Shown: piece after piece, positions 3,336-64,000 of the stretch | How the letters are laid out: each line of letters begins with the position of its first letter | Numbering within the stretch: the first letter of the stretch is position 1 | Assembly (NCBI RefSeq): GCF_038630985.1 | Contig: NZ_CP152049.1 | Coordinates: forward strand, 1,755,501-1,819,500 | Reading direction: 5' to 3' | DNA from: Paenibacillus sp. FSL H8-0548 | GTDB lineage: Bacteria; Bacillota; Bacilli; Paenibacillales; Paenibacillaceae | DNA length: 64,000 bases | Made by a program: the position numbers and the translations under genes | The notes under the pieces: model-generated | What the model was told of the DNA's origin: nothing | Seen by the model: the letters and a program-made list of their open reading frames with translations, nothing else | Database searches by the model: none

Positions 3336-3425
3336 AAATGAAGTAGGCGAAGCGAGAAGATTGTTCTGGAGAAACGAAGTGTTCACCTTTGCGGCTCTTA
3401 TTCTTATCTATAAATGTCTTAGTGA
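3336..3425. repeat. Dispersed intergenic repeat, copy 1 (partner at 57227-57318)
   Basis: About 90 bases with the shared core GCGAAGCGAGAAGA, then GAAACGAAGTGTTC, CCTTTGC, and TAAATGTCTTAG. The second copy, 54 kb away, is nearly the same with a few substitutions and small indels. Both copies follow the stop of a coding or formerly coding frame. Confidence 0.8.
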
Positions 3426-10173: not shown

Positions 10174-10176
10174 AAA

Positions 10177-10377
10177 GCAACAATGAAATGTTGCCTATTA
10201 GGGGGAATCGCAGGGCAAGCGTTAAAGTGCCAATAGTATGAGCGCATGTGCACGGCGTTCTTACTTGTGGAGGTTATACATCGGGAGATGTATAACGAAT
10301 TTGGGTGGTACCACGGAAGATATACCTTTCGTCCCTCGTTGCTTCGTTTGAAGCAGGAGGGGCGAAAGGTTTTTTTG
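10177..10377 (+). promoter_or_regulatory. T-box riboswitch leader of the ilv-leu operon
   Basis: The T-box sequence GGGTGGTACCACGG is at 10303-10316. Before it is a perfect stem III-like hairpin (GTTATACATC / GATGTATAAC, 10273-10296) and a further stem at 10236-10268. After it comes the terminator CCTTTCGTCCCTC / GAGGGGCGAAAGG (10325-10369) with eight T. Uncharged tRNA binding would shift it to the antiterminator and switch on the branched-chain amino acid genes. I could not assign the specifier codon; in B. subtilis it is for leucine. Confidence 0.9.
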
Positions 10378-10402
10378 TTTTTTTCTGAGAGGAGGATGAC
10401 TG

Positions 10403-12148
10403 ATGGTAACGCAAGATGCAACACTGAAGTCAAAAGAGGAATTGAAGGAAAGGCTCTCGAAGCCTGAGGTCATATCTGGTTCGGAAATATTGCTTCGTAG
10501 TCTGCTGCTTGAGGGTGTAGATTGTGTGTTCGGCTATCCAGGCGGAGCGGTGTTGTACATTTACGACGCTATGCACGGAAACCCTGATTTCAACCATTTA
10601 CTCACTCGTCATGAGCAAGGTGCTATTCACGCAGCGGATGGCTACGCACGCGCAAGCGGTAAAGTAGGCGTTTGTATTGCAACTTCAGGACCTGGAGCAA
10701 CAAATCTGGTAACGGGTATCGCAACGGCTTATATGGATTCTGTACCTTTAGTTGTTATTACAGGCAATGTCATTTCCAGCTTAATTGGAAGCGACGCTTT
10801 CCAAGAAGCGGACATTACAGGCATTACGATGCCAATTACTAAGCACAGCTACCTCGTGCGTGACGTTGAAGATTTGCCGCGTATTATTCATGAAGCTTTC
10901 CATATCGCGAACACTGGCCGTAAAGGTCCGGTTTTGATTGATATACCTAAAGATATTTCAGCGGCAAAAACATTGTTTAAGCCAGCGACTGAAGTGAGCA
11001 TCCGCGGTTACAACCCGACGGTTTCGCCGAATAAGAATCAAGTGGATAAGCTTATTAAAGCAATAGAGCAAGCTGAGCGTCCACTTATTCTAGCCGGCGG
11101 CGGAGTTGTATACTCTGGCGCACATGAGGAGCTATTCGAATTTGTAACGAAAACACAAATTCCAATTACAACAACGCTGCTTGGTCTGGGAGCTTTCCCA
11201 AGCGGAAATGATCTATTCCTAGGCATGCCGGGTATGCACGGCACTTACACAGCTAACAAATCGATCCAAAGTGCAGATTTGCTTATTAATATCGGCGCTC
11301 GCTTCGATGATCGTGTAACGGGTAAGCTGGCGGGCTTCGCTCCACTGGCCAAAATCGTTCACATCGATATCGATCCAGCTGAGATTGGTAAAAATGTACC
11401 AACGGATATCCCGATCGTAGGCGACGTGAAAACTGTTCTGGAAATCGTTAATAAGCTAGCTGTACGTGCAGAAAAAGCTGACGACTGGCGTGCGAAGCTC
11501 AAAGCATCATGTGAGCAATATCCATTCAGCTACAAGGACTCTGATGTTGAATTGAAGCCGCAGTGGGTTATAGAGCTGATTCACGAAACAACAAATGGCG
11601 ATGCGATCGTAACGACTGACGTTGGCCAGCATCAGATGTGGGCTGCGCAGTATTACAAATTCAACAAGCCGCGTTCATGGGTAACCTCTGGCGGCTTAGG
11701 TACGATGGGCTTTGGTTTCCCATCAGCAATTGGTGCTCAAATGGCTAATCCGGGACGTGTTGTCGTTTCCATTAATGGTGATGGCGGTATGCAAATGTGC
11801 GCGCAAGAGCTTGCGATTTGTGCGATCAATAACATTCCGGTTAAAGTTGTCATTATTAATAATCAGGTGCTTGGAATGGTTCGTCAGTGGCAAGAGCTTA
11901 TTTATGACAACCGCTACAGTCATATTGATCTTTCGGGCAGCCCGGACTTCGTTAAGCTATCCGAGGCATATGGCGTAAAAGGCTTCCGAGCAACGAACAA
12001 AGAAGAAGCCCGTGCAGTATGGGAAGAAGCGCTTAGCCATCCTGGTCCTGCTGTCGTTGAGTTTGTCGTTCGCAAGGAAGAGAACGTCTATCCAATGGTA
12101 GCGCAAGGAAGCACCATCGACGAAATGATCATGGGGGATGCGGAATGA
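10403..12148 (+). CDS. ilvB: Acetolactate synthase large subunit
   Basis: 581 residues. It condenses two pyruvates, or pyruvate with 2-oxobutyrate, using thiamine diphosphate, the first common step to valine, leucine and isoleucine. The catalytic glutamate is in [20 protein letters not shown] near residue 70, the FAD-binding middle domain follows, and the TPP/Mg site [13 protein letters not shown]...[12 protein letters not shown] is near residue 450. It overlaps ilvN by 4 bases (ATGA), so translation is coupled. GAGAGGAGG precedes the ATG. The T-box directly upstream controls it. Confidence 0.97.
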
Positions 12149-12630
12149 AAAAACACACGATCGCAGTAATCGTTAACGATCAGCCCGGCGTTCTCCAGCG
12201 TGTATCCGGCTTATTCGGACGCCGTGGCTTCAATATTGAAAGCATCACAGTCGGTTCTAGTGAAGAAGCAGGCTTGTCGCGTATGGTCATCGTCACTTCG
12301 GGTGATGATCATACCCTCGAGCAGGTTACGAAGCAGCTGTACAAATTGATTGATGTCATCAAGGTCATTGACCTGAGCTCTAATCCAATGGTTGGCCGCG
12401 AGCTTGCACTTATTAAAGTAAATGCAGAGCCGAGCTCACGTCCGGAAGTTCTAGGCGTAGTTGAAACTTTCCGCGCAGCGGTTGTTGATATCGGCACACA
12501 TTCGCTTATCGTACAAGTTGTAGGCGATACTGAGAAAATTGATGCTATGGTTGAACTGCTTAAGCCTTATGGCATTCGTGAGCTGTCGCGTACAGGCGTA
12601 ACCGCGCTGAACCGAGGCAACGCTAAGTAA
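12145..12630 (+). CDS. ilvN: Acetolactate synthase regulatory subunit
   Basis: 161 residues with an N-terminal ACT domain ([33 protein letters not shown]) and the C-terminal ALS small-subunit domain ([11 protein letters not shown]). It activates IlvB and gives valine feedback. This is the long, ilvH-like form normal in Bacillota. Confidence 0.96.
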
Positions 12631-49711: not shown

Positions 49712-50001
49712 TAAATAAAGTTTTGCCCCGGAATTATTCCCCAGATTACATGATAAGCTCGTTAGATGAAATCATCCCGTTATTAAGTTAATTAAGTTGA
49801 GGAATCCTTTCGGTGGATCATGGACAGGGGCTGCCTTCCATATTCATTGTAAAGGATCTTTTTTTAGAATAAACACGGATAATTAAACAAAATACACAAA
49901 TAAGTAGATGGTCATCATATCCCAAATAAAATATGCTGAATGCATCAGAGTTTAAAATGTGCAAAAATTTGAAAATATGCATATTGAAGGTGGGTTGTGA
50001 T
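49712..50001. other. Intergenic region
   Basis: AT-rich, 290 bases. ATCCTTT at 49804 can pair with AAAGGAT before a T run at 49860-49866, a possible weak terminator with a long loop. Nothing else is clear. Confidence 0.35.
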
Positions 50002-52281
50002 GTGAAACGACTTCCTATGATGATTCAGCTCATTTTAATTTTGTTTTGTATAATGGTCATTCCGATCTTTATTATGACATGGTATAGCGGTACACAAATG
50101 TTGAAAAATTCAGAGGCAGCTATTGCTGAATCTTCATTAGCTGGCTTGGAATCTAATCGGAGAGTAAATGAAAGCGCTTTAAATTATTTGGCCCAAGATA
50201 CAATCCGAATAGCATCATCTAATATTTTTGATGGCATTCGTAATTTTAAAACATTTGAAAACCTTAATGCTAATTACAATAGAGTTGAAAGTGCACTGTC
50301 ATTGCAAAAAGAGCTTCAACGGTTAAGCTCTAAAAATGATGGTGTAGCATCAGCTTTTTTTTATTTAAATGATGCGGATTATCTTATTTCAACAGATAAA
50401 AGTATTACCTTGCTGGAAAGATATGAAACCATCGATTGGATAAAGGATGCACTTACGAAAAGGGATGGTATTGCAGGAGTATGGTATCCCCGTGAAATGA
50501 GCTCAGGAGAAAAAGTCATCTCTTATGTTTTGTCTCTTAATCGTTTGTCGACCTCAACCAAAGGGATTATTGTTGTGAATTTGCGTGAAGCTCAAATAGC
50601 ACAAAATATGAATGCTTCTGCTGACAATCAAGCCAATCGTTTTATACTTATTGATGAAGCTAATCAGATTATTTCACATGAAAATAAAAATCTTCTCTTA
50701 CATGACGCATCAGAAATTCCGCTAATCAATGAATTAATGAGCCATGATAATCTAGAGGGCTACCTATTTCAAGAGGTAGAGGGAGAGCGGCTCTTGTATA
50801 CCTGGAGTAGATTAAATCAATTTGATTGGCTGTATGTTGGAATTTATTCAATGGAAAAGTTATTGTCCAAAACGCAAGTCATTCAAAGAAATATGATTAT
50901 TTTAACAGCGGCAATTGTAGTGGTCGGAACTATCCTTACTGTATTTCTTGCTACATGGCTTTCCAAGCCGATTCGAGTCTTAGTACAAAATGTACGAGCA
51001 TTTAGTAATCTAGGCTTATCAGGCAAAAATGAGCTTGTATTTCTAGATGTAGCTTTCCGCAGAATGCAAGATGAGGAAGATAAGCTAAATATGCTGTTAA
51101 CGGAGCATGAACAGGATGCATGCAGCTTAGCGATCTATCATCTCATGAGAGGTGAAACCTTAAATCGAAATAAAACGAATTTACTGCTGGAGATATTTCC
51201 AGAAAAAAACTTTCTTATTGTGTTGGTTTCGCTCGATCAATATAGCGCATATATGAATAAAACTAGCCCTGAGACTCGCTCCTATCATCGATATTTGTTT
51301 ATTGCTCACTGTGAAAGTTTAACTTCTAAAGGCATACATATGAGAAATGTGCACTACGGGGACGGTAGAATAGCGATATTTGTCAATTTTGGCGAAGCAG
51401 TGAAAGCTCATGAGGATATGCTTAAGCAGGCTATTGCAGCTGTAAGTGATTCTGCTTATGAGGTTTTTGGGCATACGGTAACGATTGGCGTTAGCAGGAT
51501 GACCGAATCGATCACGTCTATCCACGATAAGATTTTAGAGGCAATGGAATTGATAAAGCATCGCATAATTGAAGGCAGTGGACGTATTTTTTTCTGGAAA
51601 CCGGAAGCAATGAGTAATCAAAAATATCTTTATCCCTTAGACAGTGAAAGGCGAATTATTAATTTTTTGGATACTGGGGATCTGGAAAATATTATTCAAG
51701 AGCTCAAAACGATTCGTAATCAGATTGAAGCAGCAGAGTATATCTCCTATGACAATATATTGTTTATTTATAACCAGCTTATAGGTGTGACGATCAAACA
51801 TTTACATGAAAAAAATTCGAATTCGTTCGGCATACTTGCTGATAATGGAAATATTTATTCGAATATTGCCACGATAGATACACTTGATGAGCTTGAAGGC
51901 TATTTGAAGGAGTTTTTTTATGAGATTAGTACGAGTGAAGCTTCTAATAGGAATGAGATTAATTATGTAGAACGAATTTTAGCATATTTAGATCAGCATT
52001 TTGAGGAGGATATTGTATTTGAGGATATGGCTAAGGAAATCGGGATTAGCTATTCATACATGAGAAAGCTTGTTTACGAATCGACTGGGAAAAGCTTAAT
52101 TGATTATATTAACTTCAAGCGGATACAAACAGCCAAGCAGCTTCTGATCGAAACGACATTGAATGTAACACAAATTTCTTCACAGGTTGGCTATAACAAC
52201 ATACAAAGCTTTAATCGATTTTTTCGTAGATATGAGGGAATTACTCCAAGCAGCTATAAGGCGGCTAAGTTGAATGTTTAG
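50002..52281 (+). CDS. AraC-family regulator with transmembrane sensor
   Basis: 759 residues. Two membrane segments (about 10-30 and 300-322) enclose an extracellular dCache-like sensor of about 270 residues. A linker and a middle domain follow, and the C-terminal double helix-turn-helix is at 660-755 (EDMAKEIGISYSYMRKLVYE, SQVGYNNIQSFNRFFRRYEG). This is the one-protein sensor type common beside sugar ABC genes in Paenibacillus. The GTG at 50002 follows GAAGGTGGG; the frame upstream from 49933 lacks a ribosome site. The likely target is the ABC operon downstream. Confidence 0.9.
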   Translation: MKRLPMMIQLILILFCIMVIPIFIMTWYSGTQMLKNSEAAIAESSLAGLESNRRVNESALNYLAQDTIRIASSNIFDGIRNFKTFENLNANYNRVESALSLQKELQRLSSKNDGVASAFFYLNDADYLISTDKSITLLERYETIDWIKDALTKRDGIAGVWYPREMSSGEKVISYVLSLNRLSTSTKGIIVVNLREAQIAQNMNASADNQANRFILIDEANQIISHENKNLLLHDASEIPLINELMSHDNLEGYLFQEVEGERLLYTWSRLNQFDWLYVGIYSMEKLLSKTQVIQRNMIILTAAIVVVGTILTVFLATWLSKPIRVLVQNVRAFSNLGLSGKNELVFLDVAFRRMQDEEDKLNMLLTEHEQDACSLAIYHLMRGETLNRNKTNLLLEIFPEKNFLIVLVSLDQYSAYMNKTSPETRSYHRYLFIAHCESLTSKGIHMRNVHYGDGRIAIFVNFGEAVKAHEDMLKQAIAAVSDSAYEVFGHTVTIGVSRMTESITSIHDKILEAMELIKHRIIEGSGRIFFWKPEAMSNQKYLYPLDSERRIINFLDTGDLENIIQELKTIRNQIEAAEYISYDNILFIYNQLIGVTIKHLHEKNSNSFGILADNGNIYSNIATIDTLDELEGYLKEFFYEISTSEASNRNEINYVERILAYLDQHFEEDIVFEDMAKEIGISYSYMRKLVYESTGKSLIDYINFKRIQTAKQLLIETTLNVTQISSQVGYNNIQSFNRFFRRYEGITPSSYKAAKLNV

Positions 52282-52510
52282 ATAAGGGCTATCTAGAGGA
52301 TTGAGAAGCTGAAAATAGTATGTGATGTTGAAAAAACGTAGGTATATCAAGGCTTTTCGATCATAATCAAAAATGATGCCTGCAATCAAAATCTACGATT
52401 TACCTTTATTTACGACCCAGTGTAAGATGTGAATTATCTTCTCCGTTCAATCATAAAAGGTTTGCCAGGGTTTGAAAATCGAAAAGGGGATGTAGTTCAA
52501 AGGAGGAGGT

Positions 52511-53461
52511 ATGAATGTGAAATTTGTAAGCGCTTTAAAAAGCAAAGATGTTGATGGGAAAGGTTTATGGTACTACTTTAAGCGAGACAGAGATCTTTAC
52601 TTACTGCTATTGATTCCCATTTTCTTTGTCGTGCTATTCAAAATAGTGCCTATGTTTGGAGCGGTCGTTGCTTTCAAGGACTATAAAATTGCCAAAGGCT
52701 TCTGGGACAGTGATTGGGTAGGCTTTCAAGTGTTTCTCGACATATTTGCAAAGCGTGATTTTGGGAGAGCAGTGCGAAATACGGTAATGCTTAATACGCT
52801 GGATCTGCTGCTTAGCTTCACAGCACCCATTGTTTTATCCTTGCTTCTTAATGAAATTAGAAGTGTGAGGATGAAGCGAATTAATCAAACCTTGCTGTAC
52901 CTGCCGCACTTCTTGTCATGGGTTATTATCGGTGCAATTGCCTATCAGCTGCTAGGCTTAGGAAATGGTGTTATTAATAATCTTGTGGAATCATTCGGGG
53001 GAACTAGAATTCCCTTCTTGCAGAGTGATAATCATTGGCTGCTAAGTTATTTGCTCATAGGGGTGTGGCAAAGTATGGGCTGGGGGACAATCATTTATTT
53101 AGCATCTATAAGCTCAATTAATCCAGAGCTATACGAGGCTGCGATTGTCGATGGTGCTGGACGCTTGCGGAAAATGTGGAATGTAACGTTGCCCGGTATT
53201 CGAGTTACAATTGTCACTTTATTAATTATGAATTTGGGGAAAGTGATGGGTGGCTCATTCGAGAGAATTTATGCGCTTGCGAATAAGGCTACGACAGAAT
53301 ACACAACCACAATAGAGGTGCTAGTTTATCGCTGGGGGATTGAGGCGGGGCATTTTAGCCGTGCCACCGCACTTGGATTGTTTCAGGCAGTCATTGGACT
53401 TGGATTAGTATTGTTAGCTGACTACATTGCCAAAAAACTCGGCGAGGACGGATTACTGTAG
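52511..53461 (+). CDS. ABC sugar transporter permease, LplB type
   Basis: 316 residues, six membrane segments. The EAA loop YEAAIVDGAGRLRKMWNVTL is near 215. LplB-type proteins carry oligosaccharides or aldouronates. An AAAGGAGGAGG sequence lies directly before the ATG; a GTG at 52517 is equally well placed. It pairs with the LplC-type gene 15 bases downstream. No ATPase gene is near, so a shared MsmX-type ATPase is expected. Confidence 0.93.
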   Translation: MNVKFVSALKSKDVDGKGLWYYFKRDRDLYLLLLIPIFFVVLFKIVPMFGAVVAFKDYKIAKGFWDSDWVGFQVFLDIFAKRDFGRAVRNTVMLNTLDLLLSFTAPIVLSLLLNEIRSVRMKRINQTLLYLPHFLSWVIIGAIAYQLLGLGNGVINNLVESFGGTRIPFLQSDNHWLLSYLLIGVWQSMGWGTIIYLASISSINPELYEAAIVDGAGRLRKMWNVTLPGIRVTIVTLLIMNLGKVMGGSFERIYALANKATTEYTTTIEVLVYRWGIEAGHFSRATALGLFQAVIGLGLVLLADYIAKKLGEDGLL

Positions 53462-53476
53462 AAAGGGAGACATACT

Positions 53477-54376
53477 ATGAAAGCTTCTACTAACTTAATC
53501 AGGGTGAAGCCAAAGAAACCATTCGATCTTTGGGATGCTCTAATTAATATGTTAATGATCGTGACAGCGTTAGCCTGCTTGTTGCCGCTATTGCATATAT
53601 TAGCCAAATCCTTGAGTAAGGACGTCTATGTACTTGCGAATAAAGTCATGCTTTGGCCGATGGGATTCACCTTTGAAGCATACGGGAAAGTTCTAGGGGA
53701 CGCATCCATTCTACGATCTCTATATGTGTCTGTTGTAGTAACTGTGCTGTTTACGATACTTGGAATGCTTATTACGATTTGTGCAGCTTATCCTTTGTCA
53801 CGTAAACAGCTAAGAGGGCGCGCATTTCTGTCGTTTATCTTTTTGATTACATTGTATTTCAGCGGTGGAATTATTCCGGAATATTTGCTTATCAATTCAC
53901 TTGGTTTACTGGATACCTTGTGGGCACTTATATTGCCTCAAGCGTTTAGCGCATTTAACTTTTTGATTATGAGAAGCTCTATTTCCAGCAGTATCCCAGT
54001 CAGCTTAGAAGAATCAGCACGCATTGATGGAGCGGGACATTTCCGTGTATTATGGAGCATCGTACTGCCGCTTTCCAAGCCAATTATTGCAACACTTTCC
54101 CTATTCTATGCGGTTGGAAGATGGAATGCGTATCAGGATGCACTGTTTTATATTAAACAGAGAATTGATCTGCGCCCATTGCAGCTGAAAATGTATTATA
54201 TGATTGTTGAAGCTAGCGAAAGCTTTCAGTTAGAGGCGACGCAAGTGCAGCTAACGAATCCGGATGTGCTGAAGGCTGCATGTGTTATTTTTGCTACAGT
54301 TCCTATTATTTGTGTATATCCATTTATTCAAAAATATTTTGTGAACGGTGTCATGCTAGGTGCTGTCAAAGAGTAA
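53477..54376 (+). CDS. ABC sugar transporter permease, LplC type
   Basis: 299 residues, six membrane segments. The EAA loop LEESARIDGAGHFRVLWSIV is near 180 and the C-terminus KYFVNGVMLGAVKE is the family end. Second permease of the cluster between the LplB-type gene and the binding lipoprotein. Confidence 0.94.
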   Translation: MKASTNLIRVKPKKPFDLWDALINMLMIVTALACLLPLLHILAKSLSKDVYVLANKVMLWPMGFTFEAYGKVLGDASILRSLYVSVVVTVLFTILGMLITICAAYPLSRKQLRGRAFLSFIFLITLYFSGGIIPEYLLINSLGLLDTLWALILPQAFSAFNFLIMRSSISSSIPVSLEESARIDGAGHFRVLWSIVLPLSKPIIATLSLFYAVGRWNAYQDALFYIKQRIDLRPLQLKMYYMIVEASESFQLEATQVQLTNPDVLKAACVIFATVPIICVYPFIQKYFVNGVMLGAVKE

Positions 54377-54422
54377 GAGGATAACTTATTTGGTAAAAAT
54401 TAATTTAGGGAGGCAATTTATA

Positions 54423-56075
54423 ATGAGAAACAAAAAATTTACAATCCTATTTTTAGCTGTAATTATGCTTCTGAGTTTATTGTCTGCATGCAGCAAGAAC
54501 AATAATAACACTCCTAGTGCAAATACAGATAAAAAAGAAACCTCTCAGCCTGCCGCTACAGCAAGTACAGAAGAAAGTGGATACAAGGATTACTCAAATG
54601 GGTTTCCGGAAAAGGTAACGATTGAAATTCCAGTATATGAGCGTGCTTTTGAAGGCTGGAATGTGGCGGATAACTATTATACACGTTGGATTCAAAAGGA
54701 ATTTGGAGATAAATATAATGTTACGGTCAAATATATACCAATCGCCCGTGGAAACGAAGTACAGGATTTTCAACAGCTGCTAGCAGCCCGTAAAGCACCG
54801 GATATTATTTTCCACTATGATATGCCGCAGCAGATTGCCTATTACAGCGAGGATGTTTTACAGCCCATCGAGTGGGAGGAAGTGGCCAAGTATGCTCCTA
54901 CCTATTGGACTAATATGAGCTCGACCATTGAACAATACGGTACGATTAACAATGAAAAAATATTCTTCTTTGCGAGCAGGCCCGATGCGGATAACTTCCT
55001 GACATTAATTCGTAAGGATTGGGTCGAGCAGGTGGGCATGAAGGTAGATGATTTAACTTCGCTAGAGAAATTTAATGAGATGCTTGTAAAATGGAAGGAT
55101 GCTGGTTTAGGCGTTGCAGGAGGAAACTTGGTTCGCAACAACTTTACTTACAATTACGGATTCCGCGATTGGCCAATCGATAAAGAATATCGCGCTTTAA
55201 ACTCTGATCTTTCCATTGCAGATTTCACTACTGTAGCCACAGAACGTTATCTTCGCAATTTGAATTATCAATTTAATGCAGGAATTATTGATAAAGAGTT
55301 TTATTTAAGAGATGATGATAATAAGGTGAAATCCGAATTTGTAGCAGGAAGAACAGGTACTTATGGTACTTATTTAACTAGCAATTCAGATGTGATTGCT
55401 GCAACTCTGGCAAATAACCCAACTGCTGAATTTGCACTGCTTCCTTATGAAGTTGGTGCTCCAGAAGGTCTTGTACCACAGCAGCGTGCTTATTGGCCGT
55501 TCGGATTTATTATGGGAATAAACTATCAAACTCCTGAAATTGAACGTATTGCGGTTTGGATGTTCTTGGAGTGGATGAGTCAGCCAGACCATTTATTCTT
55601 CCTGCAAAATGGTGTGGAAGGCGAAAACTACACGCTTGATGCTGAAGGAATTGCTGTTAAAAATGCAGATTTTGCAGGCGAGTCTGTTCTAGCTATGAAC
55701 AATAACAAGGACTATTGGGCGCTTGTAACAGAGGGGGCACTATATCCTGATCCAGCAGTCAATACCAAGGCGAAAATACGAAACTGGTCACCTGAAGGCT
55801 ATGAAGGTTTAATTGAAGAGCACTTGAAAAATTATGATGCAGCAGCTCAATATCGTACACCAGATGCTTTATTTACTGAGGTAGTCACTACAGTTAGTGA
55901 ATATAAAGCTGATTTGAATGAATTGTTCCAGGAATTGTATATTAAAATCGTTACTTCTCCAGAGGCTCAATTTGATTCATTGTATGAAGCAGCTAAAAAA
56001 ACCTATCTTGATGCTGGATTTCAGAAAATTTTAGATGAGAAGAAAGCAATTATTGAAAAAGGCAGCTTCAAATAA
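54423..56075 (+). CDS. Extracellular solute-binding lipoprotein
   Basis: 550 residues. The lipoprotein signal has lipobox LLSAC at about 19-23, followed by an Asn/Thr-rich linker. The large two-lobed domain resembles LplA-type binders. The ATG at 54423 follows AGGGAGGCAATTTATA. It is the sugar-capturing part of the cluster; the ligand is unknown. A terminator ends the operon. Confidence 0.93.
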   Translation: MRNKKFTILFLAVIMLLSLLSACSKNNNNTPSANTDKKETSQPAATASTEESGYKDYSNGFPEKVTIEIPVYERAFEGWNVADNYYTRWIQKEFGDKYNVTVKYIPIARGNEVQDFQQLLAARKAPDIIFHYDMPQQIAYYSEDVLQPIEWEEVAKYAPTYWTNMSSTIEQYGTINNEKIFFFASRPDADNFLTLIRKDWVEQVGMKVDDLTSLEKFNEMLVKWKDAGLGVAGGNLVRNNFTYNYGFRDWPIDKEYRALNSDLSIADFTTVATERYLRNLNYQFNAGIIDKEFYLRDDDNKVKSEFVAGRTGTYGTYLTSNSDVIAATLANNPTAEFALLPYEVGAPEGLVPQQRAYWPFGFIMGINYQTPEIERIAVWMFLEWMSQPDHLFFLQNGVEGENYTLDAEGIAVKNADFAGESVLAMNNNKDYWALVTEGALYPDPAVNTKAKIRNWSPEGYEGLIEEHLKNYDAAAQYRTPDALFTEVVTTVSEYKADLNELFQELYIKIVTSPEAQFDSLYEAAKKTYLDAGFQKILDEKKAIIEKGSFK

Positions 56076-56086
56076 TTCATTTCATA

Positions 56087-56126
56087 CAAAACCCGATTCC
56101 CGTAGTAGACGGAGTCGGGTTTTGTT
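56087..56126 (+). terminator. Terminator after the first ABC operon
   Basis: AAAACCCGATTCC / GGAGTCGGGTTTT. Confidence 0.85.
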
Positions 56127-56178: not shown

Positions 56179-56228
56179 TGAAATATTATTTTAAGGATAT
56201 TGTGAATAATAAAACATTAGTTTAATAT
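56179..56228 (+). promoter_or_regulatory. Possible RpiR-type site and promoter before the kinase
   Basis: TGAAATATTATTTTA (56179-56193), an imperfect palindrome, then TTGTGA (56200-56205), 17 bases and TAATAT (56223-56228). A related site lies before murQ. Confidence 0.4.
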
Positions 56229-56289: not shown

Positions 56290-57204
56290 ATGAAATTTGT
56301 TATAGGAATTGATGGTGGTGGAACAAAAAGCAAGCTGCATTTGGCTGATTTGTCAGGGAATACGATAGTAGAATTGCTTGGCGGACCTACGAACCTATAT
56401 TCGATGGGGGCAGAGAGTGTCGAGCTGGAGCTTAAGAACCTAATTTCTCAAGCGATGGAAAGCAGCAAGTTGATATTGTCCAATTGTGAGGCATTCTGTC
56501 TAGGCAACTCTGGAGCAGATAGGCCTGAAGAGAAGCTTTTGTTTCAAAATATGCTGGTGAAATTCGGTATTAGGGGTAAGATTATCATCACAAATGATGC
56601 TGAAACCGCACTTGTAGCTGGGAGCGGAAAAAGAGAAGGCGTCGTCATTATATCGGGTACGGGTTCGTTGGCGTACGGAATTAATTCGCTTGGAGAAAAA
56701 GCCCGGTCTGGCGGTTGGGGACATATTGCAGGTGATGAAGGCAGTGGCTATGAAATCGGAATTATGGCGATCAAAGCAGCGCTGCGCAGCTATGACGGGA
56801 GAGAGCCCTCGACCATATTACTCCCGCAAATCATGAAAGAGCTAGAACTGGAACGACCAGAACAGCTGATTCGCTTTATTTATCAGCAAGCAGGAAAGCA
56901 GGATATTGCTGCTCTGACTAAAGTGGTGAAAAATGCTTTTTTAGAACATGACCCTAAAGCATCTGAAATATTATTACATGCAGCAAAAGAATTAATCCTA
57001 ATGGCTGATGCCGTCATTCGTAAGCTGAGCTTGGAGGAAAAGGAGTTCAGCCTTGTATGTACGGGGAGCATTTTTCAACATATGCCATATGTTTATACAC
57101 AGTTTGTTCAACAAATGAAGGAGCTTTATCCCCTTGCTGACGTAATTATTCCTAAACGAGACGCTGCATATGGTGCGGCTGCCATTGCACTGCTTTCCCT
57201 CTAA
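56290..57204 (+). CDS. BadF-type amino-sugar kinase (GlcNAc/MurNAc kinase-like)
   Basis: 304 residues, ASKHA fold. Phosphate loop GIDGGGTKSKLHLAD at 5-19, second phosphate motif VIISGTGSLAYG near 120, and GGWGHIAGDEGSGYEIG near 140. Members include GlcNAc kinases and MurK, which phosphorylates MurNAc. Linked murQ makes MurNAc or a mixture with GlcNAc the likely substrate (inference). GGAGGTG is 6 bases before the ATG. Confidence 0.88.
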   Translation: MKFVIGIDGGGTKSKLHLADLSGNTIVELLGGPTNLYSMGAESVELELKNLISQAMESSKLILSNCEAFCLGNSGADRPEEKLLFQNMLVKFGIRGKIIITNDAETALVAGSGKREGVVIISGTGSLAYGINSLGEKARSGGWGHIAGDEGSGYEIGIMAIKAALRSYDGREPSTILLPQIMKELELERPEQLIRFIYQQAGKQDIAALTKVVKNAFLEHDPKASEILLHAAKELILMADAVIRKLSLEEKEFSLVCTGSIFQHMPYVYTQFVQQMKELYPLADVIIPKRDAAYGAAAIALLSL

Positions 57205-57226
57205 TTCATATATAAGTTGAACTTAA

Positions 57227-57318
57227 AAAATGAAGTTTAAGCGAAGCGAGAAGATCGTTCTGTAGAAACGAAGTGTTCGCCTTTGCAGCCTTATTCTAAC
57301 CTTTAAATGTCTTAGGAA
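57227..57318. repeat. Dispersed intergenic repeat, copy 2
   Basis: Matches 3336-3425 in the same orientation (GCGAAGCGAGAAGATCGTTC, GAAACGAAGTGTTCGCC, TAAATGTCTTAGG). It begins about 20 bases after the kinase stop codon. Confidence 0.8.
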
Positions 57319-57431
57319 ATCAAAGAATCTGGCTGCAACAGCGATCGTAAGAATGATCTACTCGCGCAGCGCACAACACGGACTAGAATTGTCAGGGTTT
57401 ATTTATTTATTTATTTATGAGGAGTGATTGG

Positions 57432-58295
57432 ATGTTGAAGGGTGCACTTATTCGAATGGAAGAAGCATTTCATATGCTCACACCTATGGAGAAGAAAACG
57501 GCGGAATATATACTTAAGCATCCGAGTGAAACTGTGAATATGTCGGTACAAAAATTAGCGGAATTGGCTGAAGTAAGCGAAGCGACGATCGTACGGTTAT
57601 CACGGACGTTGAACTGTAAAGGATTTCAGGACCTCAAATTAAAGATTGCTGCAGACCTATCCTACTCGCCATCGGATTCGGAAACCGACTCCTATCAAGA
57701 GATCAGAAGTGAGGCTGCGGTATCAGATTTAGTACAATCCATCTCTCATAACAATATTAAGTCGATTCAGGATACGATACTTGTCCTATCCGTAGAGGCA
57801 TTGGAACAAGCGATCCATAAGCTGCAGCGAGCGAGAAAAATTGCTATTTTCGGTATCGGAGCTTCTGCTATTATTGCAGAGGACTTTCAACAAAAACTAA
57901 TGAGGATTAATCGATGGTGTGAATCAGGCTATAGCTTCAATGCACAAGCAACGATTGCAGCTAATTTGAATGAGAATGATGTAGCATTAGGTATTTCATA
58001 CTCTGGACAAACCAAAGATACGATACGTTCGCTTGAAATTGCCAAGGAGAATGGAGCCAATGTGATCTCGTTGACCAAGTTCGGCAGCAATCCGGTTGCC
58101 AATCTTGCTGACATCTGTCTTCATACCAGCTCTTTGGAGAAAAGTATCCGTACCGGGGCGATGGCCTCTAGAATGGCGCAGTTGAATATTATCGATATTT
58201 TGTATGTAGGGATTGCGTCAGGAAATATTGAAGAAAATATTCAGCTTCTTGAACGGACTAGGCTGGCGGTTAGCAGCTCCAAACAAAATAAATAA
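57432..58295 (+). CDS. RpiR/MurR-family transcriptional regulator
   Basis: 287 residues. N-terminal RpiR helix-turn-helix (SVQKLAELAEVSEATIVRLS near 40) and C-terminal SIS sugar-phosphate domain (AIFGIGASAIIAEDFQQKL near 138, ALGISYSGQTKDT). MurNAc-6-phosphate is the expected effector beside murQ. The ATG at 57432 follows GAGGAG by 7 bases; the ATG at 57417 in the same frame is the alternative. A terminator follows. Confidence 0.92.
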   Translation: MLKGALIRMEEAFHMLTPMEKKTAEYILKHPSETVNMSVQKLAELAEVSEATIVRLSRTLNCKGFQDLKLKIAADLSYSPSDSETDSYQEIRSEAAVSDLVQSISHNNIKSIQDTILVLSVEALEQAIHKLQRARKIAIFGIGASAIIAEDFQQKLMRINRWCESGYSFNAQATIAANLNENDVALGISYSGQTKDTIRSLEIAKENGANVISLTKFGSNPVANLADICLHTSSLEKSIRTGAMASRMAQLNIIDILYVGIASGNIEENIQLLERTRLAVSSSKQNK

Positions 58296-58327
58296 GCTGT
58301 TACTTAGCAGTCTTATTAACGAAGCAT

Positions 58328-58356
58328 ACCGTCAGGAGGGACTGACGGTTTTTCTT
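58328..58356 (+). terminator. Terminator between the regulator and murQ
   Basis: ACCGTCAG, loop GAGGGA, CTGACGGT, then TTTTTCTT. Confidence 0.85.
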
Positions 58357-58368
58357 ACTGCTAGATAC

Positions 58369-58440
58369 TGAAATAAAATTACAAAATAAATTAGTTGAAA
58401 AGAAATAATATATTGAATTTTATTTAGAATTTGATATAAT
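58369..58440 (+). promoter_or_regulatory. murQ promoter with possible RpiR sites
   Basis: TTGAAT (58413-58418), 16 bases, TATAAT (58435-58440). The motif TGAAATAAAATTACA at 58369-58383 resembles the site before the kinase; AAATAAAATT (58371) also has an inverted copy AATTTTATTT (58416-58425). Confidence 0.6.
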
Positions 58441-58481
58441 GTTCCTATAAAGGCTCTTTGATGAGGGGAAGAGGGAACGAA

Positions 58482-59387
58482 ATGAACGTTTTGAACACAG
58501 AACAGTCCCATGGTAAATCAAATAATCTTGATGTGATGGATGCTGCGGAAATCATTGGTTTAATGAATGAAGCTGATTTGGAGGTTGTCTCCAAGGTGAG
58601 GTCGGAGATAGCCAATATTGCTGATGCAGTGGATTTAGTAGCTAGGAGCTTGAAGAACGGAGGAAGGCTAATTTATGTCGGGGCAGGCACAAGCGGTCGT
58701 CTAGGAATACTTGATGCTGTTGAATGCCCGCCGACCTTCGGAGTATCCGATCAATTAATTCAAGGGGTTATCGCAGGAGGACCAAATGCAGTATTTAAAT
58801 CGGCCGAAGGCGCAGAAGACGATGAGAGTCAGGGGGGAATCGATTTACAGCAGATTGGCTTAAATTCTAATGATGCGGTTATGGCCATTAGCGCCAGCGG
58901 GAGAACCCCTTATTGTATTGGGGCTTTAAAGTACGCAGCAGCCAAAGGGGCAGGCACCATTGCTTTATCTTGTAATAAAAATGTCCGAATGAGCGAGCTG
59001 GCGGATATCAGTATAGAAGTGGATACAGGACCTGAGGTTATTACTGGTTCTACTCGTTTAAAGGCGGGAACAGCAGAAAAAATGGTGCTTAATATGATTT
59101 CAACAGCAGCTATGGTTAAGCTTGGAAAAGTATATAAGAACTATATGGTTGATATGATTGTCTCCAATCAGAAGCTAGCGGATCGCTCAAGAAGAATTGT
59201 AATGAATGCAGCAGACATTAGTAATGAAATGAAAGCACAAGAACTGTTGGAGGAAGCATCCGGAAATATGAAGGTCGCCATTGTTATGGCGCTTGCTAAT
59301 GTAAATAAAGAAGAAGCGGCGCAATTGCTCTCCGAGCATGGCGGATTTGTTAGAAGGGCTGTTCATTCTAAAAATGGGTTGGTATAA
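58482..59387 (+). CDS. murQ: N-acetylmuramic acid 6-phosphate etherase
   Basis: 301 residues, SIS fold. It cleaves MurNAc-6-phosphate to GlcNAc-6-phosphate and D-lactate. The signature GAGTSGRLGILDAVECPPTF is near 68-87, with IAGGPNAVFKSAEGAEDD and STRLKAGTAEKMVLNMIST further on. The ATG at 58482 is preferred to TTG 58458 or ATG 58461 because AGAGGG lies 6-8 bases ahead. First gene of the transport operon. Confidence 0.95.
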   Translation: MNVLNTEQSHGKSNNLDVMDAAEIIGLMNEADLEVVSKVRSEIANIADAVDLVARSLKNGGRLIYVGAGTSGRLGILDAVECPPTFGVSDQLIQGVIAGGPNAVFKSAEGAEDDESQGGIDLQQIGLNSNDAVMAISASGRTPYCIGALKYAAAKGAGTIALSCNKNVRMSELADISIEVDTGPEVITGSTRLKAGTAEKMVLNMISTAAMVKLGKVYKNYMVDMIVSNQKLADRSRRIVMNAADISNEMKAQELLEEASGNMKVAIVMALANVNKEEAAQLLSEHGGFVRRAVHSKNGLV

Positions 59388-59442
59388 GGTGCTTTTATTG
59401 TAAGCGTATTCGAAGTGATGTTCATAGGGGAGGTGGCATTCG

Positions 59443-60360
59443 ATGTCTTTCTATTTGAGTAGTTTGCGAAAATCGTTACGAAAAAACTGGGATTTATATT
59501 TGCTCATTTTTCCGGTCGTTCTTTATTTTATTATTTTTCATTATTTACCGATGATGGGCATTCAGCTGGCATTTAAAAATTTGATGCCGCTAAAAGGGGT
59601 TTGGGGCAGTCCATGGGTAGGCTTTGAGCACTTTACACGTTTCTTTAACAGCTATTATTTCTGGGATTTACTCAAAAACACATTGGGAATTAGTATTTAC
59701 TCATTAGCAGTCGGATTTCCGGTTCCTATTTTGTTGGCACTTATGATTAATGAGGTTAGCGGCAAGCGGTTCAAAAAAATGGTTCAGACGGTTACCTATG
59801 CACCGCATTTTATTTCCATGGTGGTCATGGTTGGTATGATTACTATGTTTCTGTCTCCGCAGACGGGGTTCATTAATGGAATTATTGAGTTTTTTGGTGG
59901 AGAGCCTATTTACTTCATGGGTGAGCCTGGAAAGTTCAAAACGATATACGTTCTCTCGAACGTATGGCAAAACATGGGATGGGCATCCATTATTTATATC
60001 GCAGTATTGGCGAATGTTGATCCGCAGCAGCATGAATCGGCGGTCATCGATGGAGCAAATAGGGTGCAGCGGATATGGTATATCAACATTCCATCCATAT
60101 TGCCAACCATCGTCATTCTTTTTGTACTTGATGTAGGGCAGATCATGAATGTTGGTTTTGAAAAAATATTTCTTATGCAAAATGATTTGAATCGAAACGC
60201 CTCTGATGTTATTTCTACCTTCGTATATCGAAATGGGATATTGGGAGCAGAATATGGCTTCTCTACAGCGGTAGGTCTGTTTAATTCAGTCATCAACTTT
60301 ACCCTTTTGATTTTGGTTAATGCAATTGCAAGAAAGACAAACGAAACGAGTCTTTGGTAG
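59443..60360 (+). CDS. ABC sugar transporter permease, LplB type (MurNAc locus)
   Basis: 305 residues, six membrane segments, EAA loop HESAVIDGANRVQRIWYINI near 200. It follows murQ by 55 bases. The GGGGAGGTGG ribosome site is strong. Together with the next permease and the lipoprotein it should import the sugar degraded by MurQ. Confidence 0.93.
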   Translation: MSFYLSSLRKSLRKNWDLYLLIFPVVLYFIIFHYLPMMGIQLAFKNLMPLKGVWGSPWVGFEHFTRFFNSYYFWDLLKNTLGISIYSLAVGFPVPILLALMINEVSGKRFKKMVQTVTYAPHFISMVVMVGMITMFLSPQTGFINGIIEFFGGEPIYFMGEPGKFKTIYVLSNVWQNMGWASIIYIAVLANVDPQQHESAVIDGANRVQRIWYINIPSILPTIVILFVLDVGQIMNVGFEKIFLMQNDLNRNASDVISTFVYRNGILGAEYGFSTAVGLFNSVINFTLLILVNAIARKTNETSLW

Positions 60361-60372
60361 GGGGTGTACATA

Positions 60373-61266
60373 ATGGCCGAAGGTTTTGCAAAAACGAGAG
60401 GCGATAAAGTGTTTATTTTTGTGAACACGTCGATTCTTATTTTAATAACAGCAATGGTGCTTTACCCGCTCATTCTAGTGGTCAGCTCTTCCTTTAGCAA
60501 TCCGCTGCAAGTGATGAGCGGCAATGTGTGGCTCTTTCCGAAAGAGTTTACGATTCAATCTTATCAAATGGTGTTTCAGGATTCCTCTATTTTAATTGGA
60601 TACAGAAATACACTTTTATACACCGTTGTTGGGACGCTCATTAATTTAACGATGACCATTGCAGCTGCCTACCCGCTGTCACGAAGGGATTTTGTAGGAA
60701 GGAATTTGATCACTGCTATGTTCGTTTTCACGATGTTCTTCAGTGGCGGCTTGATTCCAACCTACCTGGTCGTGAAAGGGCTTGGCTTGGTGGATACGTT
60801 TTGGGTAATGGTTCTTCCGAATGCGGTTGCTATGTATAACATCATTATTATGAGAACTTATATGCAGACATCCATTCCACCGGAGCTTCATGAAGCAGCC
60901 TATGTCGATGGAAGTACGAACATTGGCGTACTGTGGCGCATTGTGCTGCCGTTGTCGAAGCCGATATTAGCTGTAATGGTGCTATTTTATGGTGTGGCGC
61001 ATTGGAATGCTTTCTTTAATGCATTGATTTATTTATCCGATCGTTCTCATTTCCCGCTGCAATTAATTTTGCGTGAAATTCTCATACAGAATCAGTTGTC
61101 CGCACAAATTATGGCGGATGTGGATTCATTGTCCGATCGACAAATGTTCGCAGAAGGAATCAAATACGCAGTCATTATTGTAGCAAGTGTGCCGGTATTG
61201 ATCATCTATCCGTTTTTGCAGCGTTATTTTGTTAAAGGGTTTATGGTAGGCGCGCTTAAAGGATAA
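60373..61266 (+). CDS. ABC sugar transporter permease, LplC type (MurNAc locus)
   Basis: 297 residues, six membrane segments, EAA loop LHEAAYVDGSTNIGVLWRIV near 175, ending RYFVKGFMVGALKG. The ATG at 60373 follows AGGGGG; a GTG at 60364 is less well placed. Third gene of the murQ operon, 12 bases after the first permease. Confidence 0.93.
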   Translation: MAEGFAKTRGDKVFIFVNTSILILITAMVLYPLILVVSSSFSNPLQVMSGNVWLFPKEFTIQSYQMVFQDSSILIGYRNTLLYTVVGTLINLTMTIAAAYPLSRRDFVGRNLITAMFVFTMFFSGGLIPTYLVVKGLGLVDTFWVMVLPNAVAMYNIIIMRTYMQTSIPPELHEAAYVDGSTNIGVLWRIVLPLSKPILAVMVLFYGVAHWNAFFNALIYLSDRSHFPLQLILREILIQNQLSAQIMADVDSLSDRQMFAEGIKYAVIIVASVPVLIIYPFLQRYFVKGFMVGALKG

Positions 61267-61353
61267 GACAGAGCAGGATTACAATTGCTGGACAGGCGGA
61301 GAGGTCAAATCTGACTTGTTTAGTATGTAATAATATGATTAGGGGGTCTTTAC

Positions 61354-62997
61354 ATGTACAAAGGTAAACATGCGATATCTATTATTGCAGCAATGATGAT
61401 GGTCATTTCGTTGTTGGCAGGCTGTGCTTCCAATAACGGAGAAAACGCTCCTGTAGATAGTTCAGCGAGCAACCCGCCTCAAGAAGAACAAAAAGAGCTT
61501 TTAAACCTTACAGGAATGCCGATTGTTAACGAGCCGCTCACACTGAAGATGTTTGCGACGTCCAGTCCTTTTAACAAAGGGGAATTCAAGGATGTTGAAA
61601 TGTGGGAGACGTATGAACAACTATCCGGTGTTCACGTGGAGTGGGATGCTGTTCCCGGCGCTAACGTTCTTGAGAAAAAAAATCTAGTGTTAAATACGGG
61701 CGGTACGCTTCCCGATGCTTTCTTTAAGGTAGATATGTCATCATTGGAACTGACTCGATATGGCAGCCAAGGCCTTCTTATTCCGCTTAATGACCTGATC
61801 GAGAAGTATGCTCCTAATTTCAAGAAAATCATGGATGAGAATCCAGATGTGAAGAAGGCAGTTACGATGGCTGACGGCAATATTTATTCTCTTCCTTATT
61901 TGGTAACAGCAACACCATCAAGACTGCCTTATAAAATGTTTGTCAATCAAAAGTGGCTAGACGCGACAAAGCTTCAGGCACCGACAACAACAGATGAACT
62001 ATATGATGTTTTGAAGACATTCAGTGATTTTGATCAAAACAGCAATCAAAAGAAGGATGAAATTCCACTCACATCCGGTCATGGCATTGACGGTATTATT
62101 AACCCGCTAAAGGGAGCGTGGGGTCTTGGCAACAAAGGGCTTAGCCATCCCAATGTAGACGTTGATCCGGCCACACAGCAACTGCGTTTTATCCCGGCAG
62201 AGCAAGGTTATAAGGAAATGCTGCAATTTTTGAATAAATTATATTCAGAGAAGCTGCTTGATCAAGAAATATTTACGATGGATCTAGCTAAGCTTGCTGC
62301 AAAAGGCGCACTTGGACAAGTAGGATTCTCTTTTGCGACAAACAATAACCTAATTGGACCTGAAAACGAGAATGATCTCGTTGGATTAGAAGCGCTTAAA
62401 GGCCCGAACGGAGATAAATTGTATTTCCCTTTGAATCCGAATACTGGGGCAGTAGGAACATTCATGGTAACGAAGGATAATAAAAACCCGGAAGCAACAA
62501 TACGTTGGATTGATTATTTCTATGGTGAAGAAGGACAACGTTTGTTCTTTATGGGAATTGAGGGAGAAACCTATACCGTTGCGGATGGAAAAGCGACGTT
62601 TACAGACCTAGTGAAGAAAAACCCCGACGGATTGTCTTTGAATGATGTGCTGGGTAAATATGTGGTTTGGGGCGGTGGTTCCAATCCTTCGGTTGCAGGC
62701 GACAAATATTTTGGTGATCAATTGATCGGTGATATTACAAGAGATGCGGCCTCGAAGTTGATGCCGTATACACCGGAAGAAGTATGGGGACCATTTGCTT
62801 TCTCCGAATCAGATTCAACTAGAATCAAAACATTGGAAAATGATATTCTCACGTATGTTAAAGATATGCAGGCGCAGTTTATTACAGGCCATGCCTCCTT
62901 TGACAAGTGGGAAGAGTATGTGAACGCATTTAATAAAATGGGATTGAAAGAGTATATGGAAATTTATAATAAAACGTATGAGGTATACAATAAATAG
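61354..62997 (+). CDS. Extracellular solute-binding lipoprotein (MurNAc locus)
   Basis: 547 residues. Signal with lipobox LLAGC at about 20-24, then an acidic linker, then the binding domain (LNLTGMPIVNEPLTLKMFA). It is about the size of the binder at 54423. The cell-wall sugar or muropeptide ligand is inference from murQ. A hairpin without a T run follows, which may stabilise the message. Confidence 0.93.
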   Translation: MYKGKHAISIIAAMMMVISLLAGCASNNGENAPVDSSASNPPQEEQKELLNLTGMPIVNEPLTLKMFATSSPFNKGEFKDVEMWETYEQLSGVHVEWDAVPGANVLEKKNLVLNTGGTLPDAFFKVDMSSLELTRYGSQGLLIPLNDLIEKYAPNFKKIMDENPDVKKAVTMADGNIYSLPYLVTATPSRLPYKMFVNQKWLDATKLQAPTTTDELYDVLKTFSDFDQNSNQKKDEIPLTSGHGIDGIINPLKGAWGLGNKGLSHPNVDVDPATQQLRFIPAEQGYKEMLQFLNKLYSEKLLDQEIFTMDLAKLAAKGALGQVGFSFATNNNLIGPENENDLVGLEALKGPNGDKLYFPLNPNTGAVGTFMVTKDNKNPEATIRWIDYFYGEEGQRLFFMGIEGETYTVADGKATFTDLVKKNPDGLSLNDVLGKYVVWGGGSNPSVAGDKYFGDQLIGDITRDAASKLMPYTPEEVWGPFAFSESDSTRIKTLENDILTYVKDMQAQFITGHASFDKWEEYVNAFNKMGLKEYMEIYNKTYEVYNK

Positions 62998-63029
62998 TTT
63001 TTTTACAATAATCCGTTTGCTGCTAACAT

Positions 63030-63071
63030 GACACGCATGAGGGAGAACCGCAAGGGTCTTCCTCATGTGTC
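63030..63071 (+). promoter_or_regulatory. Intercistronic hairpin after the binding-protein gene
   Basis: GACACGCATGAGGGAGA pairs with TCTTCCTCATGTGTC. No T run follows, so mRNA protection or partial termination is more likely than full termination. Confidence 0.7.
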
Positions 63072-63103
63072 TATATATCGGCCAAACTAGGAGGAGAATT
63101 AGA

Positions 63104-64000
63104 TTGTATACGGAGGTCAGAGAGCTTGGCGGGGTTCCAACTCTATTCATTAATGGCAGTCCTGAATATGCCAATGCCTATATTACCTATTTAGAAGAGC
63201 ATGCGCGTTATTCCGATTTCTCGGCGGCAGGTGTTCATATTTATTCGCTGCCCGTGTATTTGGCATCTAGAGGAATAAACACAACGAGCGGAATCGGTCC
63301 TTTTCGCAAAGGCCTTTGGGATCAAGAGGAAGTTTTGGACTTTACTTCATTGGAAAAGGATTTGCAGCAGCTTTTGGCAGATGATCCAGCTGCATTAATA
63401 TTTCCGAGAATCATGCTCGATATGCCCGAATGGTGGGATAAGAAGTATCCAGAGGAGTTAAATCGTTTATCGGATAATAGGACGCTGCGTCAGTCTTTCT
63501 CATCTATTCGTTGGCGAGAGGATGCAGGCTTTGCCCTGTCGCAAATTATCGATTATTTGAATCAGGAATCTTATCGAGAACATATTATCGGATATCAATT
63601 AAGTGCCGGAAATACGGAGGAGTGGTTCTATCACGGCAGTCCGAATGCAGACTATAGTCTTCCTGCACAACTCGCTTACCATCAATGGTTGGAACGTGAA
63701 GGCAAGACCGAACAGGGGATTTCGGATGAGATTAATGAAGATTGTACTTTGCTAAGCCCTATGAAGGATCAAGCCATAATTGATTATCGATTGTTTTTGA
63801 GCTTTGCGGTGACCGATGTTATTTTGTATTTCACCAAACTTGTGAAAGAGCTAACGGAAAAGCGATTAATCGTAGGTGTATTTTATGGTTATTCGCTTGA
63901 ATTAACGGATTCGAGAACAGGGCATCATGATTTGCAAAGATTGCTGCGGCACCCATCGATAGATTTTCTATGCAGTCCTAACAGTTATATGGAACAAAGA
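63104..64000 (+). CDS. Glycoside-hydrolase-like protein (cut by window end)
   Basis: 299 codons are visible, open at the window edge. TTG start with AGGAGGA 8 bases upstream. The text GGVPTLFINGSPEYANAYITY, then FPRIMLDMPEWWDKKYP, GYQLSAGNTEEWF and VGVFYGYSLEL reads like a (beta/alpha)8 glycosidase of the beta-galactosidase/GH42 clan; NTEEW may hold the acid/base. There is no signal peptide, so it would act inside the cell on an imported oligosaccharide. Family and substrate are not sure. Confidence 0.75.
   Translation, partial: MYTEVRELGGVPTLFINGSPEYANAYITYLEEHARYSDFSAAGVHIYSLPVYLASRGINTTSGIGPFRKGLWDQEEVLDFTSLEKDLQQLLADDPAALIFPRIMLDMPEWWDKKYPEELNRLSDNRTLRQSFSSIRWREDAGFALSQIIDYLNQESYREHIIGYQLSAGNTEEWFYHGSPNADYSLPAQLAYHQWLEREGKTEQGISDEINEDCTLLSPMKDQAIIDYRLFLSFAVTDVILYFTKLVKELTEKRLIVGVFYGYSLELTDSRTGHHDLQRLLRHPSIDFLCSPNSYMEQR

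Follow-up and report, generated by a model that had tools for sequence, protein, structure and literature searches.

A locus in Paenibacillus sp. FSL H8-0548 probably constitutes a regulon for the salvage of N-acetylmuramic acid (MurNAc), combining import by an ATP-binding cassette (ABC) transporter, a kinase and the etherase MurQ with operator-linked importer, GH42-like and SLH genes. Its genes lie from position 56,290 onward in a 64,000-nucleotide stretch (NZ_CP152049.1: 1,755,501-1,819,500; the window) of a genome that is a single contig of 7,351,569 bases and was scored 99.62% complete. A reading made from the sequence alone (the sequence-only reading) had placed a kinase, an RpiR/MurR-like regulator, murQ, two permeases, a binding lipoprotein and a glycosidase-like gene together here; all were present, and from the kinase to the GH42-like gene they were co-directional on the + strand with open reading frames (Table 1). 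Throughout, L-numbers denote fetched genome stretches, G-numbers denote genomes, and P0001 is a homolog of the GH42-like protein taken from the protein database.

We propose that MurNAc, or a small MurNAc-containing saccharide freed outside the cell, would be caught by the lipoprotein and imported unphosphorylated through the LplB/LplC-type permeases, with an ATPase encoded elsewhere driving uptake. The MurK-type kinase would produce MurNAc-6-phosphate, and probably N-acetylglucosamine (GlcNAc)-6-phosphate as well, and MurQ would convert MurNAc-6-phosphate into GlcNAc-6-phosphate by removing D-lactate. Palindromes located before the kinase and murQ would be the targets of the RpiR/SIS regulator, whose effector is probably MurNAc-6-phosphate; by acting before murQ, the regulator is proposed to switch on the importer, GH42-like and SLH genes along with murQ. 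Within this route, we infer the transported sugar, the palindrome-binding protein, its effector, one transcript from murQ onward, and what the GH42-like and SLH proteins do.

MurQ, the kinase and the absence of MurP

By curated family score, the window murQ product is classified as a MurNAc-6-phosphate etherase: it exceeded all three NCBIfam cut-offs (TIGR00274, 374 vs. 302 bits; PRK12570, 398 vs. 255 bits; PRK05441, 404 vs. 168 bits) and was the sole MurQ match in its genome at E ≤ 1e-20. The CPPTF- and EGAEDD-type motifs, which we take to contain the catalytic glutamates of Escherichia coli MurQ, were both visible in the translation.

The closest relative of the kinase in the PDB was 8zo3, entitled MurNAc/GlcNAc kinase, which matched residues 1-300 at E 2.3e-78. 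We take 8zo3 to be Clostridium acetobutylicum MurK; if it is, that enzyme is by far the closest solved kinase. In contrast, 8oqw and 8ow9 (titles 'ATPase' and 'Putative novel MurNAc kinase'), presumably enzymes of Tannerella forsythia, matched at E 3e-7 only. We built a maximum-likelihood tree of 54 rows (midpoint root, long branches flagged), in which the window kinase grouped with 43 kinases from stretches around murQ in related genomes at a branch support of 100/99, while eight NAGK-type rows and two other kinases of its own genome lay on the opposite side of that branch. Its sister was the kinase of L067 (58% identity). These comparisons classify the window kinase as MurK type, kin of a characterised MurNAc kinase and apart from GlcNAc-kinase-like types. 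Within the genus, 22 of 51 genomes, its own included, had a kinase match at E ≤ 1e-35, and the best other match was 37% identical, so the window locus is unlike the loci of near relatives. A named genome collection yielded five loci with close kinase relatives (best 36% by segment), and NamZ adjoined the kinase in L020 and L021.

The kinase might instead mainly make GlcNAc-6-phosphate, in which case the locus would chiefly salvage GlcNAc or muramyl peptides, and MurNAc would be secondary. The name of 8zo3 covers both sugars, and the C. acetobutylicum MurK, which has dual MurNAc/GlcNAc activity, is reported in PMC5790795 to prefer GlcNAc slightly. However, MurQ is needed solely for a lactyl ether, and the genome has both a phosphotransferase system (PTS) gene nearest GlcNAc/glucose models and further kinases of the same family, two of them beside GH4-type genes; we regard GlcNAc salvage as very unlikely. 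The latter two, BadF-family kinases at L017:5869-8189 and L018:6645-8940, fall in the tree on the side of those NAGK-type kinases that adjoin GH4 genes at murQ loci of relatives; GH4 domains were scanned in L018, and the L017 neighbor was judged alike by eye.

The PTS permease MurP is the described MurNAc route in Bacillus subtilis and Staphylococcus aureus. A PF02378 search of the whole single-contig genome identified three PTS EIIC genes, none of which encodes a MurNAc-type EIIBC: one exceeded the mannitol cut-offs, and the other two, both below cut-offs, were nearest beta-glucoside EIIABC and GlcNAc/glucose models, respectively. The MurP-like EIIBC of the relative L078 also matches PF02378, so this search should have detected any MurP. 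The L078 protein was best matched by PRK09586, the MurNAc model, again without reaching the cut-off, indicating that the best row separates EII types even below cut-offs. The proposal that ABC import and a kinase replace MurP, for which a murP elsewhere in the genome had been suggested as a check, is well supported: no EIIC gene is of MurP type, the kinase is of MurK type, and operator-like sites precede both the kinase and murQ. Searches for NamZ, presumably the present name of ybbC, and for AnmK gave no match in the genome and were positive in control genomes. Elsewhere in the genome (L140), a NagZ-type protein with a lipoprotein-like N-terminus scored 235 bits against a cut-off of 207, so free MurNAc could arise extracellularly without NamZ.

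murQ loci of the family and a shared palindrome

MurQ was found in 73 of 118 same-family genomes, its own included. The 80 other listed MurQ matches, two of which were pieces of one gene in L132, were all covered by 79 fetched stretches, whose genes we placed by tblastn. In these stretches, which are mutually related and sometimes cut by contig ends so that counts are not independent, a MurK-type kinase occurred in 52 of 79, or 61 when nine with a kinase at or ≤400 bp past the fetched edge are added (L084, L092, L100, L103, L111, L120, L121, L124, and L132), and a MurP-like EIIBC occurred in 11. Kinase and EIIBC never shared a stretch (0 of 79), suggesting that the kinase appears where no PTS phosphorylates. 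NamZ was present in 54, with ABC permeases in every one. Three genomes carried the kinase/ABC and EIIBC kinds at separate loci: G055 (L055, L110), G006 (L074, L076), and G026 (L073, L127). Kinase plus ABC importer is therefore the usual and commonest plan among the 79 stretches, in most of which MurNAc apparently passes through an ABC importer before meeting a kinase. The sequence-only reading had treated the locus as a special case; this holds for the importer type and the glycosidase-like genes, which are unusual, but not for the pairing of kinase and ABC importer.

The usual family row runs regulator-murQ-solute-binding protein-permeases-(anmK)-NamZ-murK. The window locus shares with the family loci the kinase, ABC importer, MurQ, RpiR regulator and operator-like palindrome, but it has an LplB/LplC-type importer in a genome without NamZ or AnmK, whereas the family loci have an MsmE-like importer and, in the proportion given above, NamZ. 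A kinase without NamZ was seen in eight of the 79 stretches (L067, L085, L089, L091, L093, L096, L104, and L119); L067 has the kinase nearest to that of the window, and L085, L104, and L119 supply three of its four nearest regulators. Interest centers on the exchanged importer, the absence of NamZ and the palindrome.

Similar partial likenesses link the locus to known systems. According to PMC5061867, the B. subtilis cluster reads murQ-murR-murP-amiE-nagZ-ybbC; the window likewise has MurQ, a MurR-type regulator and, as proposed, extracellular breakdown of muropeptides, but an ABC importer and a kinase in place of the PTS permease MurP, and no NamZ in the genome. The T. forsythia murT-murK-murQ operon, as described in PMC5790795, follows the same plan as that proposed here, with non-PTS uptake, then a kinase, then an etherase. 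ABC uptake of wall fragments also recalls, by its title alone, a peptidoglycan-recycling ABC transporter of Agrobacterium tumefaciens. Within the literature covered here, no paper paired MurK with an ABC-type MurNAc importer in bacteria resembling Paenibacillus, which is weak evidence of absence. The Agrobacterium transporter is reportedly of the muropeptide type (YejBEF-YepA), unrelated to sugar-type importers.

The loci whose regulators are nearest to that of the window had a palindrome, TGAAATNNNATTTCA, in common upstream. Scoring as a site any position that matched 11 or all 12 of the arm positions, and with the motif chosen from stretches that were later counted, we obtained 101 sites in the 79 murQ stretches, compared with 3.3 expected from base shuffling and 6, 4, and 11 in three Markov-1 copies. 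At least one site was present in 60 of the 79, including 10 of the 11 stretches with EIIBC and 50 of the 68 without it, and eight fetched stretches without murQ (L004, L016-L019, L134-L136; 130 kb) contained one such site. The palindrome, new here, marks murQ loci of the family, PTS and ABC alike. Sites with ≥9/12 matches clustered 31-33 bp from strong sites, about three helical turns; this spacing accounted for 57 of the 76 pairs that were 16-60 bp apart, a tally in which two strong sites forming a pair count twice. In the rest of the genome, TGAAATNNNATTTYA with ≤1 mismatch gave 100 forward and 108 reverse matches vs. 45 and 43 for a backward control, an excess that may partly reflect palindromic matches scored on both strands. 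The paired palindrome offers a simple handle for finding the regulon, surface enzymes included, in family genomes.

Three 11/12 sites (56179, 56964, and 58369) occurred in the 64-kb window, where the Markov mean was 0.6, and all of them fall between 56179 and 58383. The sites upstream of the kinase (TGAAATATTATTTTA) and of murQ (TGAAATAAAATTACA) each have an 8/12 partner copy 31 or 32 bp on; since 3.5% of the positions upstream of these two genes reach 8/12, these partners alone are modest evidence. Weaker 10/12 palindromes lay at 53847, 56286 (the kinase start), 60159, and 60564 (the last two within permease genes), and no site of ≥9/12 preceded the regulator, the first permease, the binding-protein gene or the GH42-like gene. 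The regulator has an HTH_6 plus SIS architecture (PF01418, 74.8 bits; PF01380, 91 bits) and is 64% identical to its closest counterpart, the regulator of L079, beside murQ/anmK, and 60% identical to that of L085. Judging by its position and the nearby palindromes, the regulator, outside the curated E. coli-type MurR set, may work like MurR. The paired palindrome suggests that the importer type changed while the target sequence of the regulator stayed.

Importer, GH42-like and SLH genes behind murQ

The locus contains parts of a CUT1-type sugar ABC importer, namely a binding lipoprotein and two permeases. The binding protein is long, akin to AlgQ1/AlgQ2, and is related in sequence to solved extracellular solute-binding proteins (5g5y/5g5z, E 3.6e-48; 5xs8, E 1.1e-47; AlgQ2, E 8.5e-40). 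No importer ATPase of the MsmX/UgpC type was present in the locus, and the genome was not searched for one; in L061 and L066, an ATPase gene lies beside the permeases. LplB/LplC-type permeases within a murQ-NamZ-kinase gene row were found in only two of the 79 stretches (L094 and L116).

We infer that murQ, the permeases, the binding protein, and the GH42-like and SLH genes form one transcription unit. A terminator-like hairpin and a promoter-like site stand before murQ, and no + strand terminator-like site was found in the gaps from murQ to the SLH gene. This arrangement may place the genes for the importer, the GH42-like protein and the SLH protein within the MurNAc regulon. Totals of terminator- and promoter-like sites do not exceed shuffles, and only their placement speaks, weakly. 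Three + strand terminator-like sites fall inside genes (59709, 59817, and 65143). By eye, a hairpin with a T run also lies before the kinase, near 56091-56119, with a loop of about ten bases that is too long for the scan.

The region could alternatively hold two unrelated modules, with kinase-regulator-murQ serving MurNAc, which would enter via another ABC importer, and the LplB/LplC permeases, binding protein, GH42-like and SLH genes serving a plant, fungal or exopolysaccharide glycan. Relatives of the GH42-like protein adjoin LplB/LplC-type importer genes in G171, G154, and G119, with AraC-type regulator genes as well in G171 and G154, and LplB/LplC cassettes also neighbor murQ loci that have another transporter (L074 and L102). 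We searched the genome of the window with the binding protein of the L067 murQ locus, scoring 150 of 170 candidates, and obtained at least 57 matches at E ≤ 1e-10, which leaves room for another MurNAc importer. However, identity was 29% for the best-scoring match and at most 34% for any, which singles out no other importer as being of the L067 type; in addition, operator-like sites precede murQ and no terminator-like site lies in the 55 bp after it. On balance, we consider two unrelated modules unlikely, though with a real chance of being correct.

Several further observations weigh against a single MurNAc regulon. The LplB/LplC-type permeases of L094 and L116 are just 30% identical to those of the window, and no close relative of the binding protein was found in the 79 murQ stretches (two matches, 28-31%, in separate cassettes). 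Relatives of the GH42-like protein were likewise absent from the 79 stretches, and neither murQ nor the kinase lay near its relatives in G171, G154, and G119 within the fetched 20 kb; the downstream half may therefore have arrived behind murQ as a polysaccharide cassette. The binding-protein and GH42-like genes might also have promoters of their own, since each is preceded by a promoter-like 9/12 site (61311-61339 and 63002-63029, respectively). The regulator scored far below the curated MurR cut-off (PRK15482, 130 vs. 408 bits), with PRK11337 as its best row (186 vs. 378 bits). One of the 11/12 palindrome sites lies inside the kinase gene (56964-56978), and 8/12 matches total eight in the A+T-rich murQ stretch and three in the kinase stretch.

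The single-regulon reading leaves the GH42-like protein with one tie to muropeptides, its place behind murQ. No Pfam family exceeded its cut-off: PF02449 scored 15.8 bits against a curated 21 and was the only family reported at E ≤ 1, with no match to PF07075/PF20732 (NamZ) or PF00933 (NagZ). A murein hydrolase by family was rejected, the sole match being this sub-threshold GH42. No signal peptide was seen by eye, and no meaningful solved relative was found by sequence (one row, E 0.91). Among 733 database relatives at E ≤ 1e-3, the named ones within the best 120 were called beta-galactosidase, GH42-type or hypothetical, some homologs being labelled PF02449. We used the model of P0001, a 76% identical homolog (predicted local distance difference test score, pLDDT, 90), which matched GH42 enzymes over the full length (template modelling score, TM, ~0.6; 11-14% identity) and also resembled GH35 beta-galactosidases. 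An alignment of 30 sequences showed no variation at glutamates 172, 173, and 339 of P0001, which might include the acid/base and the nucleophile. As modelled, the GH42-like protein is a distant GH42/GH35-like protein with a beta-galactosidase-like fold. At E ≤ 1e-60, a relative was present in four of 394 family genomes, its own included. The earlier suggestion of a glycosidase-like gene whose product would cleave a disaccharide or muropeptide after import thus finds no backing, given this distant relationship and three relatives among the 394 genomes with neither murQ nor murK within 20 kb.

The SLH protein, encoded just beyond the window, has a signal-like N-terminus by eye, one fn3 domain and three SLH domains, and its solved relatives cover just the SLH and fn3 parts. 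Its central region had 14 database matches, itself among them, and none of the 13 others has a named activity. A homolog model (pLDDT 77) gave TM ≤0.14 to the query among the 50 Foldseek rows listed, and no family is therefore claimed. The named database relatives of both the GH42-like and SLH proteins are from Paenibacillus and Cohnella. In L079 (3291-8975), an SLH protein with GHL10 and SpoIID domains lies next to murQ/anmK, and a 12/12 palindrome occurs at L079:3151, about 130 bp before its gene. SpoIID-type enzymes cleave wall glycan strands. By analogy, L079 provides a precedent for surface enzymes in the palindrome regulon, not proof for the window SLH protein. A more specific version of the single-regulon reading, which we consider doubtful, would have the surface SLH protein free a MurNAc-containing saccharide, the LplB/LplC importer take it up whole, and a cytoplasmic GH42-like enzyme release MurNAc for use by MurK and MurQ, independently of NamZ and under one MurR-like operator. 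The partner of MurNAc in such a route would possibly be a sugar other than GlcNAc, for example a wall-polymer sugar.

Feature coordinates and neighboring observations

Table 1 Features of the locus in window coordinates; the GH42-like and SLH genes are also given in L003 coordinates.
Feature	Position	Strand	Basis or remark
MurK-type MurNAc/GlcNAc kinase (predicted), BadF/BcrA family	56290..57204	+	PF01869 144 bits; 8zo3; kinase tree
RpiR/SIS-domain regulator, MurR-like	57417..58295, likelier start 57432	+	PF01418 + PF01380
murQ, MurNAc-6-phosphate etherase (predicted)	58458..59387; ATG at 58482 likelier than listed TTG	+	Three NCBIfam models
LplB-type ABC permease	59443..60360	+	PF00528; 55 bp past murQ
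LplC/YtcP-type ABC permease	60364..61266	+	PF00528; 3 bp past LplB-type permease
Solute-binding lipoprotein	61354..62997	+	PF01547; lipobox LLAGC visible in translation
GH42-like protein	63065..64000 in window, reading frame end 65242 (L003:12565-14742)	+	Homolog model
SLH-domain protein, 1728 amino acids, outside window	65248-70434 (L003:14748-19934)	+	5 bp past GH42-like reading frame
AraC-type sensor, own LplB/LplC permeases and binding protein	49933-56075		Upstream of kinase
Operator-like palindrome TGAAATATTATTTTA, 11/12	56179..56193	.	Upstream of kinase; 8/12 copy at 56210, 31 bp on
Operator-like palindrome TGAAATAAAATTACA, 11/12	58369..58383	.	Upstream of murQ; 8/12 copy at 58401, 32 bp on
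Terminator-like hairpin and T run	58328..58349	+	After regulator gene, before murQ
Promoter-like site TTGAAT-16-TATAAT, 10/12	58413..58440	+	Before murQ

No RNA family reached its gathering score in L003. The gap between kinase and regulator contains an interspersed, partly palindromic repeat (57226-57400), of which the window has a partial copy at 3336-3422 (88%); elsewhere in the genome, L145 (96%) and L017 (94%) carry longer ones. In relatives, the ABC-type murQ rows repeatedly include PIG-L-type and GNAT-type genes (L084, L092, L097-L099, and others). In the ABC-type locus L119, a polysaccharide lyase family 8 gene (10034-12433) lies about 30 bp behind murQ, and L104 has a rhamnogalacturonan lyase-type protein near murQ; these lyases call for caution, since polysaccharide genes often lie near murQ with no known tie to it. 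A relative of the cassette upstream of the window kinase is found beyond murQ in one of the 79 stretches, L085 (1669-6277), with the sensor 47% and the permease 74% identical.

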